Shown: piece after piece, positions 20,353 to 22,843 of the stretch | Layout of the letters: every line of letters starts with the position of its first letter | Numbering within the stretch: the first letter of the stretch is position 1 | Source: an uncultured Veillonellaceae bacterium | Lineage (GTDB): Bacteria > Bacillota > Negativicutes > Veillonellales > Veillonellaceae | Direction of reading: 5' to 3' | Length of the DNA stretch: 64,000 nucleotides | Assembly (NCBI GenBank): GCA_945867815.1 | Contig: CAMBIX010000004.1 | Location: 1 to 64,000, forward strand | Notes under the pieces: generated by a model | Told to the model about the DNA's origin: nothing | The model's input: the letters and a program-made list of their open reading frames with translations, nothing else | Database searches by the model: none | Position numbers and translations under genes: made by a program

Positions 20353-21534
20353 CTACATGCGCTTTTGCACAAAGCGATTAATCCGTACCAAGGCCTCAGA
20401 AATCTTATCAATAGCCGTCGCATAAGAACAACGTATATGCCCTTCCCCAGAAGCACCAAAGGCATTACCTGGCACTAAGGCTACATGCTCTTCCTCTAAT
20501 AATTGTTCTGCAAACTCTTCTGACGTTAATCCTGTAGGACTAATATCAGGGAAAATATAAAAGGCTCCTTTAGGTTCAAAACAAGGCAGTCCCATTTTTA
20601 CAAACCCATTATAAATCAACTTACGACGTCGGTTATATTCTTTTACCATAGCCTTCATCGAATCCTCTGCATTACGCAAAGCCTCTGTTGCTGCCATCTG
20701 CGCCATAATGGACGCACACAGCATAGTATATTGGTGAATCTTAGTCATGGCCGCAATCAAAGTTGGATTACCACACACATAACCAACACGCCAGCCTGTC
20801 ATAGCATACGCCTTAGAGAAACCATCCATAACCAAGGTACGTTCCTTCATACCTGGTAAGCTAGCAAAGCAAATCGGCCCCTGCTCTGTATAAGTAAGTG
20901 CACTATATATCTCATCTGAAATAACAATTAAATCATGCTTTTCTGCAAACTTAGCAATAGCCAATAAGTCATCACGACTCATAATGGCACCCGTCGGATT
21001 ATTAGGATAGCCAATGACTAAAATCTTAGTCTTATCCGTTACATAGGGTTCCAATTCATCAGGTGTAATCCGAAATTCATTTTCAATCTTAGCTGGCACC
21101 GTAATAGGTACGCCCCTAGCCAAACGCGCCGTTGCTTGATAGGACACATAGCAAGGCTCTGGAATTAATACCTCATCACCAGGTGCTAACAAGGCCCGCA
21201 TAGCTAAATCCAAAGCCTCACTTACCCCAACAGTAACTAATACATCTGTTTCCCAATCATAAGTCACATCATATTGCCGCTTATATTTGTTAACAATCTC
21301 CTTGCGAAGCTCTGGAAGCCCTCGATTAGCCGTATAAGATGTATAACCCTTCTCTAAACCATACACACAACTTTCACGAATATTCCAAGGTGTTACAAAA
21401 TCCGGTTCCCCTACACCTAAAGAAATAACATCCTCCATTTTAGAGGCAATATCAAAAAACCGACGAATACTCGATGGTTGAATCGAATTCACTGCTGGTG
21501 ATAAACGACGTTTCCAATCCAATTGTTCCTTCAT
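20353..21534 (-). CDS. class I/II PLP-dependent aminotransferase (YugH/PatA-like)
   Basis: 393 aa. Fold-type I aminotransferase: substrate segment SLGVGEPDF (about residues 37-45), GYPNNPTGA (about 174-182), the SDEIYSAL segment with Asp and Tyr for PLP (about 205-212), and the Schiff-base lysine in SKAYAMTGWR (about 239-248). It probably transaminates aspartate, alanine or an aromatic amino acid with 2-oxoglutarate. Its ATG overlaps the stop of the Lrp-type gene by one base (TAATG). This regulator-aminotransferase pair resembles yugG-yugH of Bacillus, named from memory. The T-box leader upstream would link expression to uncharged tRNA. Confidence 0.9.
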   Translation of the reverse strand: MKEQLDWKRRLSPAVNSIQPSSIRRFFDIASKMEDVISLGVGEPDFVTPWNIRESCVYGLEKGYTSYTANRGLPELRKEIVNKYKRQYDVTYDWETDVLVTVGVSEALDLAMRALLAPGDEVLIPEPCYVSYQATARLARGVPITVPAKIENEFRITPDELEPYVTDKTKILVIGYPNNPTGAIMSRDDLLAIAKFAEKHDLIVISDEIYSALTYTEQGPICFASLPGMKERTLVMDGFSKAYAMTGWRVGYVCGNPTLIAAMTKIHQYTMLCASIMAQMAATEALRNAEDSMKAMVKEYNRRRKLIYNGFVKMGLPCFEPKGAFYIFPDISPTGLTSEEFAEQLLEEEHVALVPGNAFGASGEGHIRCSYATAIDKISEALVRINRFVQKRM

Positions 21535-22025
21535 TAAGGCGTCACCACCAATCTATGATCTTCTTCTTTACCGGTAATCACAACGCCATCCTTTTTATAT
21601 GGTTTTAGCATAAAATGGCTGCTCGTTGCCGTAACCCCTTCAATCGTAGATAAACGAGTAGCTACAAAATTAGCGATTTCCTTTAAAGAACGTCCTTCTA
21701 CAACAAGCATTAAATCGAAACTACCACTCATTAAATAAACAGACTTCACTTCATCAAACTTATAAATCCGCTCAGCTACCGCATCAAAACCAACTTCTCG
21801 CTGCGGTGCTAAATTAATCTCAATCAAAGCCGTAACCCGTGTATCACCTAACTTTTCCCAGTTAATTAGCGTCTGATATTCTAAAATCGTACCATCATTA
21901 ACAAGCTCCTTCATAAGCTTCTTAACTTCATCTTCCGTACAACTCAACATAGCCGCTATATCACTAACTGGCCGCCGCGCATCATGCTCTAATATATCAA
22001 CTAACTCACGCTTTATATCCATCAT
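21534..22025 (-). CDS. Lrp/AsnC-family regulator (YugG-like)
   Basis: About 163 aa. An N-terminal helix-turn-helix (PVSDIAAMLSCTEDEVKKLMKELV) is followed by an RAM/AsnC ligand-binding domain (about 65-145: TRVTALIEINLAP, VYLMSGSFDLMLVVEG). The in-frame ATGs at 22025 and 22022 both follow AAAGAGG at 5-8 nt; the further ATG at 22052 precedes the ribosome site and is rejected. It likely senses an amino acid and regulates the coupled aminotransferase. It is unusual in having a T-box and a long structured repeat upstream. Confidence 0.88.
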   Translation of the reverse strand: MMDIKRELVDILEHDARRPVSDIAAMLSCTEDEVKKLMKELVNDGTILEYQTLINWEKLGDTRVTALIEINLAPQREVGFDAVAERIYKFDEVKSVYLMSGSFDLMLVVEGRSLKEIANFVATRLSTIEGVTATSSHFMLKPYKKDGVVITGKEEDHRLVVTP

Positions 22026-22136
22026 GTCAACCTCTTTCTTTATACTAACCAAACCATACTAACCTAAACAAAAATGAACCACGGGGCTATTTCTCGCCCC
22101 TTGCTTATGAGGCATCCACTTCTAACATTATCCATA

Positions 22137-22322
22137 GGCATGCGTGTGAGACTCCTCTTGGCTCCATGTCACGAAGCACCTAATGTCTCTTACGAGCGAC
22201 TTGCGAAGCGTAGCGAAGAACGGAGTCTCGGAAGACCATTAGGTGCTTCCATACCCCGAGCCACCCCAAACGCATGCCCACAACAAAAATAAAAAAGAGC
22301 CTCATCCGCAAGGACGAGACTC
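22137..22322 (-). repeat. terminator-linked hairpin repeat, copy 1
   Basis: On the minus strand this starts with the T-box terminator stem (22297-22322), then a spacer (TTTGTTGTGG), then a long hairpin. Outer arms 22137-22145 / 22270-22278 are 9 bp, middle GGCTC/GAGCC 5 bp (22160-22164 / 22258-22262), inner 22173-22185 / 22237-22249 13 bp. Copy 2 at 22689-22843 has the same order of blocks. The conserved parts are the terminator and the blocks GCTCCATGTCACGAAGC and CTTCCATAC (plus strand); the stem bases differ but still pair. Confidence 0.8.
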
Positions 22323-22516
22323 TAATAACCCGTGGTACCACCTTTATTTAGATTTATAACAAATCCAACTCAACACCTTAACGCGGCTAACGGCTATCCT
22401 TTCAGTAGCAGCTCCTGACTAGCCTTCCCCATCATCTTTGCAGTGACTCGCACCAACCGTCACCTCTCTTAGCAAATCCGATGCGTACTCAATCATTCTT
22501 CGCTTTTATCTATTGT
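22290..22516 (-). ncRNA. T-box riboswitch leader
   Basis: On the minus strand the antiterminator AAAGGTGGTACCACG (about 22331-22345) is flanked by complementary CTAAATAA and TTATTAG. It is followed by a terminator stem (22297-22322) and U-run. Upstream are the Stem I features AGAGAGGTGACGGTTGGT and a GGTGCGAGTCACT hairpin arm. The UGGU bulge predicts pairing with a tRNA whose discriminator base is A. I could not fix the specifier codon with confidence. Readthrough should reach the Lrp/aminotransferase pair about 265 nt further on. Confidence 0.92.
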
Positions 22517-22522
22517 GATGTA

Positions 22523-22551
22523 ATCATAGCACACCCAGTGTTCACTGACAA
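22523..22551 (-). promoter_or_regulatory. promoter of the T-box transcript
   Basis: -35 TTGTCA (22546-22551), 17-bp spacer, -10 TATGAT (22523-22528) on the minus strand, just before the T-box 5' end. Confidence 0.8.
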
Positions 22552-22555
22552 GAGA

Positions 22556-22584
22556 GTAAGGTATGCATATAACGCATACCTTAC
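22556..22584 (-). terminator. hairpin after the XRE remnant
   Basis: GTAAGGTATGC pairs with GCATACCTTAC across a short loop, directly at the stop of the XRE fragment and just before the T-box promoter. It lacks a good U-run. Confidence 0.5.
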
Positions 22585-22697
22585 TAAATAAATTTAATTT
22601 GTAATTCTTTTCCTAATCCACGAGCAATCTTATGTACGGTCGCAATTGATGGCAAAGCCTTTCCCTTCTCAACGTGCAAGTCTCTTCTTAGCTCCAT
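22584..22697 (-). pseudogene. 3' remnant of an XRE/HigA-type antitoxin gene
   Basis: Reading from an ATG at 22697, 37 codons end at TAG 22584. The protein has VEKGKALPSIATVHKIARGL followed by GKELQIKFI. This matches the last third of XRE-family antitoxins (an ..E.GK..PS..TL.KIA.ALGK.LEI.F ending). The DNA-recognition helices are missing; the upstream sequence is replaced by repeat copy 2, in which the first codons lie. No ribosome site is seen. I call it a remnant, not a functional gene. Confidence 0.7.
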
Positions 22698-22843
22698 GTC
22701 ACGAAGCGCCTACGGTTTCTTTTAGGTGACTTACGACGTACGGAATCCTAAAAGATGCGTAGACGCTTCCATACTCAGCCCATATACGAGCACACATCCA
22801 CAACAAACCTAGCAAAAGAGCCTCATCCGCAAGGACGAGGCTC
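22689..22843 (-). repeat. terminator-linked hairpin repeat, copy 2
   Basis: On the minus strand: terminator stem (22818-22843), spacer TTTGTTGTGGATG, hairpin arms 22703-22714 / 22758-22769 (12 pairs, one G-U), and an inner stem CTTTTAGG / CCTAAAAG (22719-22726 / 22747-22754). It aligns with copy 1 over both flanks while the paired bases differ. The terminator part follows the pyrD stop by about 18 bp. Confidence 0.8.

Follow-up and report, generated by a model that had tools for sequence, protein, structure and literature searches.

Class C group II introns and certain IS elements target hairpins, inserting beside or inside terminator hairpins with a bias of orientation, and the attC sites of integrons are imperfect hairpins in which the sequence varies while the fold is conserved. 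REP sequences are hairpins of 20-40 bp tagged GTAG or CGTC, which occur as short extragenic palindromes in many copies, often clustered, with subfamilies distinguished by alternative complementary stems (PMC3733652). Bacterial MITEs, among them QMITE2, Correia and Chunjie, are small, apparently non-autonomous, intergenic, hairpin-forming and limited to particular lineages (PMC10969869).

The hairpin repeat of ~95-100 bp described here, from the genome of an uncultured Veillonellaceae bacterium, has something in common with each of these. It is a short extragenic palindrome of many, often clustered copies with alternative complementary stems, like REPs, but is 95-100 rather than 20-40 bp long, lacks both the GTAG and the CGTC tag (its foot reads GTAY-GGAAGC), occurs in a genome without a RAYT (Y1) gene, and forms clusters that are head-to-tail in 24 of 24 cases, whereas REP dimers are mostly head-to-head or tail-to-tail. 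With MITEs it shares all the features just listed for them, and is likewise short and dispersed, with discrete ends and inverted repeats at its termini; it differs in its asymmetric feet and covarying stem, in that no parent insertion sequence was found for it among the minority of transposase families covered, and in that no target-site duplication was found, a feature that MITEs lose with age. Insertion beside or inside terminator hairpins and orientation bias recall the class C introns and IS elements, but the repeat is far too small and its genome has no reverse transcriptase. The imperfect, sequence-variable hairpins of constant fold recall attC sites, but no GTTRRRY-type boxes were seen and no cassettes lie between copies. 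We file it as a small palindromic repeat variant, REP/MITE-like in behaviour and unlike REPs in length, tag, RAYT gene and dimer orientation. Our preferred reading, to which we give a probability of roughly 0.6, is a lineage-specific, non-autonomous element of the REP/MITE kind, a hairpin with conserved feet, covarying stem and structured cap. No description of this repeat family was found in the literature.

A hairpin pair and its genome-wide family

An earlier note had described two hairpins on the minus strand of the window (the whole 64,000-nucleotide stretch analysed), each with a common terminator, a TTTGTTGTGG spacer and conserved feet. All of these parts are present, and the observation is confirmed, but the family is far larger than was noted. 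The features concerned are:

22158..22257, minus strand: element copy 2 (type A, long loop; CM R1 96.3 bits), stem GAAGCACCTAATG/CATTAGGTGCTTC, lying 3' of the T-box terminator and ~105 nt upstream of an Lrp/AsnC-like regulator
22688..22777, minus strand: element copy 1 (type A, short loop; CM R1 88.2 bits), stem GAAGCGTCTACG/CGTAGGCGCTTC, lying 83 nt past the pyrD stop
22137..22157, minus strand: 3' outer arm of copy 2, complementary in the fold to 22258-22283 (GGCATGCG/CGCATGCC)
22258..22283, minus strand: 5' outer arm of copy 2, from the fold and flank complementarity
22296..22326, minus strand: T-box intrinsic terminator GAGTCTCGTCCTTGCGGATGAGGCTC-T6, which differs little from the post-pyrD terminator when the two copies are aligned
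22813..22843, minus strand: intrinsic terminator 3' of pyrD (GAGCCTCGTCCTTGCGGATGAGGCTCTTTT)
22307..22509, minus strand: T-box leader (Rfam RF00230, 117 bits)

Both stems pair as had been claimed, copy 1 with an MFE of -42.3 kcal/mol (z -2.35) and copy 2, outer arms included, with -70.5 kcal/mol (z -5.42); in outer-arm flank complementarity copy 2 ranks strongest among 66 loci. The T-box leader precedes the Lrp/AsnC-like regulator and an aminotransferase (window 20353-22509, minus strand), the element copy separating the first gene from the T-box terminator. Between the two copies, at 22581-22690 on the minus strand, is an open stretch ending in HVEKGKALPSIATVHKIARGLGKELQIKFI and a stop, which resembles the C-terminus of an XRE-type antitoxin.

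A genome-wide search with a structural model, the check that the note had proposed, gave 98 copies at 68 loci, 44 of them single, 18 double and 6 triple. The covariance model (R1) was built from 45 copies (alignment A1) and returned 124 matches at E <= 1, some of which are antisense echoes of the palindrome; the count of 98 was reached after these echoes and weak fragments had been discarded. Dozens of matches were also obtained by BLAST and pattern searches, the reversed control pattern giving 1 match against 46 for the true pattern. Most copies are 90-104 nt long, conservation stops sharply at both ends, where the flanks are unrelated, and 95 of the 98 lie outside ORFs of >= 90 codons, the remaining three overlapping antisense ORFs of doubtful reality. 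The repeat is a discrete, dispersed and pairing-conserved unit at ~68 intergenic sites, nested copies included. No real copies were found in viral, plasmid and phage collections.

Stem covariation and its possible causes

Copies follow the pattern AGAGTAYGGAAGC-stem-cap-stem'-GCTTCGTGACATAGWGC; their feet (GTAYGGAAGC ... GCTTCGTGACATAGWGC) are conserved, while the inner part occurs in several types, which we named A-D from the copy alignment. Pairing is found in 92.6% of cells of the 13-bp outer stem, and double-sided changes there number 76 cells against 22.5 in shuffles, a value reached by none of 500 shuffles; the signal is lost when the arms are slid against each other. Stem mismatches comprise 30 G-T and 27 A-C cells, a near equality which argues that the pairing is not specific to one RNA strand. 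The G-U pair restricted to the minus strand, which the earlier note had offered as a clue, comes from one copy and finds no counterpart in these family-wide counts.

Template switching between the arms of the palindrome has to be taken seriously as another cause of the covariation, although we would place it somewhat short of an even chance. It would keep stems paired without selection, and fits mobility or none. Such switching is described as creating and maintaining hairpins through apparent compensatory change (PMC8794818), and it agrees with the lack of strand asymmetry among the mismatches and with terminators of a sister genus (g3), whose lower stems are wholly replaced between loci, yet remain complementary. 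It leaves unaccounted for, however, the dispersal of the repeat, its conserved feet and its conserved asymmetric cap.

On the other hand, the covariation could reflect selection on a functional RNA, the copies being 3'-UTR or intercistronic hairpins (mRNA stabilisers, or processing or protein-binding sites) that spread because they were useful. Consistent with this, of the 66 loci for which an upstream gene could be defined, 60 are on the strand of that gene, at a median of 37 nt past its stop codon, the stem covaries strongly, and the apical cap is kept on terminators of another genus. Selection on RNA should, however, favour G-U, whereas G-T and A-C are about equally frequent; the family is also absent from relatives, R1 giving no comparable match in 60 further genomes of the order, all of them from other genera; and Rfam gave nothing credible for the element at the E-value threshold, its gathering-score matches in the window being only the T-box, SSU rRNA and tRNA. 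We consider an RNA function distinctly unlikely as the explanation.

Placement, clusters and flanks

By local GC skew, 66 of the 68 loci have the leading-strand orientation. The leading-strand share of nearby genes is 87.5%, so that gene orientation explains the bias partly, with an excess at element loci of p = 0.015. Of the few discordant loci, about six agree with replication and oppose the gene, two show the opposite pattern, and the two directions cannot be cleanly separated at element loci.

The link to a terminator and spacer, drawn in the earlier note, stands for the window pair and fails for the family, since about 10 of the 68 loci have any terminator within 45 nt upstream. (The terminator scan itself predicted 11 of 68, with two predictions inside coding sequence and the real post-pyrD terminator missed.) The 3' flank logo lacks a T-run and has a conserved GTGACATAGAGC in its place; because no T-tract follows and so few loci come directly after a terminator, the element is not itself a terminator. 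The "mobile terminator" of the note thus finds no support, and as to its stable RNA, the mismatch counts given above speak against strand-specific selection on RNA. Its broader proposal of a dispersed, probably mobile element is supported by the many copies, their sharp ends, the clusters of unrelated copies and the nesting; the earlier interpretation as a whole is partly supported.

For only 8 of the 46 copies in clusters does the closest relative lie within that cluster, which argues that clusters arose mainly through independent arrivals sharing one orientation. Origin of the window pair by a single local duplication, which the note had named, with only two copies existing, as the case that would refute it, is very improbable. 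The two do have an alignable terminator, spacer and adjoining flanks, which look like a local duplication and may be one, the terminator sequence having no further occurrence in ~309 kb around all copies. For the element cores duplication is refuted, as these are 66% identical, come only 41st and 32nd when the 82 copies are ranked by similarity to the other, and have closer relatives elsewhere (91% and 82% identity), the nearest on other contigs (contig 1, at 91%, for the 22158 copy).

Complementarity between the flanks, when measured as duplex energy across 100 nt, gave a noisy signal, with a rank < 0.02 at 8 of 66 loci, and an ungapped test was therefore added. In this test, inverted complementarity of the immediate flanks exceeded shuffles (4.41 versus 4.01, sd 0.10), whereas direct repeats were at the shuffle level (4.39 versus 4.24, sd 0.14); hence no target duplication was found.

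Caps, terminators and probable mobility

Intrinsic terminators of a second family also occur in the genome; their stems are particular to each locus, but the cap, CCCTCGCGAGCTGGTACTATCGTAAGGCTCTTTAACGGG, is conserved (for example on its contigs, G000, at C1:428972, C11:24090 and C13:2618). Four element copies lie in the apical loop of such capped terminators (C7:90469, C7:97205, C10:56409 and C8:74542), and the copy at C15:174, by inspection, splits a type D element. The contig ends C15:1-320 (L216) and C16:1-190 (L217) have an element and flanks in common, the C15 end with an extra element within a type D element and the C16 end with a shortened type D element. Exact sites of the core of this terminator cap, GAGCTRRT-N-AAGGCTC, number 34 in this genome, whereas 299 further genomes from the class have 0-2 apiece.

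In the sister genus g3, terminators 3' of ligA, of glmM and elsewhere bear an invariant cap, TTGCTCCGTYCTWCGYAAAGTCGC, on stems that are complementary but differ entirely in sequence. This cap closely resembles that of the type A elements in the window, whose short form has GCTCCGTTCTTCGCAAGTCGC. When the element genome was searched with a model made from g3 terminators alone (R2), six sites reached E <= 0.012, and every one overlaps an element copy or a candidate that R1 had also detected; in a third genus R2 picked up weaker capped hairpins. From sequence and position, the element cap and the sister-genus terminator cap are probably homologous. Up to 11 model matches occur per g3 genome, and at loci L303, L307, L317 and L311 of that genus the terminators have A/T-tracts on both sides, stems that covary fully and an invariant cap, TTGCTCCGTYCTWCGYAAAGTCGCTGCA. 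At the centre of loci L334-L338, from genus g4, are terminators sharing only the internal-loop boxes TTGCTCC / AAAGTCGCTGCA, with stems variable both below and above them.

The reading of the repeat as a non-autonomous element is supported by its 98 copies at 68 loci, sharp boundaries, unrelated cluster members, same-strand clusters and nested copies, together with inverted flank complementarity above shuffles, stem covariation and the leading-strand orientation of 66 of 68 loci. Such a repeat would move between sites, most likely by way of single-stranded DNA folded as a hairpin, and its pairing could be kept either because the hairpin is the recognised form, or because arm-to-arm template switching mends mismatches, or both. 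Against it stand the lack of a target-site duplication, of a reverse transcriptase and of a Y1 (TnpA_REP) transposase, PF01797 having no match in this genome while being positive in 5 control genomes. Eight tyrosine recombinases are encoded, none linked to the repeat, and no match to the 3' foot was seen at the end of a larger element, the search covering a minority of transposase families.

A more specific form of mobility, which we regard as rather unlikely, would be a hairpin that seeks hairpins, spreading as folded single-stranded DNA into terminator loops and its own copies by means of an enzyme unlike the known REP transposases; its cap would be an old structured module, carried by terminators in several genera of the family, with completely exchangeable stems.

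The repeat provides about 100 natural variants of one hairpin within one genome, in which the sequence changes and the pairing stays. These permit RNA function, single-strand DNA mobility and template switching to be tested against each other as the cause of covariation, a question that bears on every RNA claim based on covariation. The cap that the element has in common with sister-genus terminators suggests that a terminator hairpin can be both a place where repeats land and a source from which repeat families arise.
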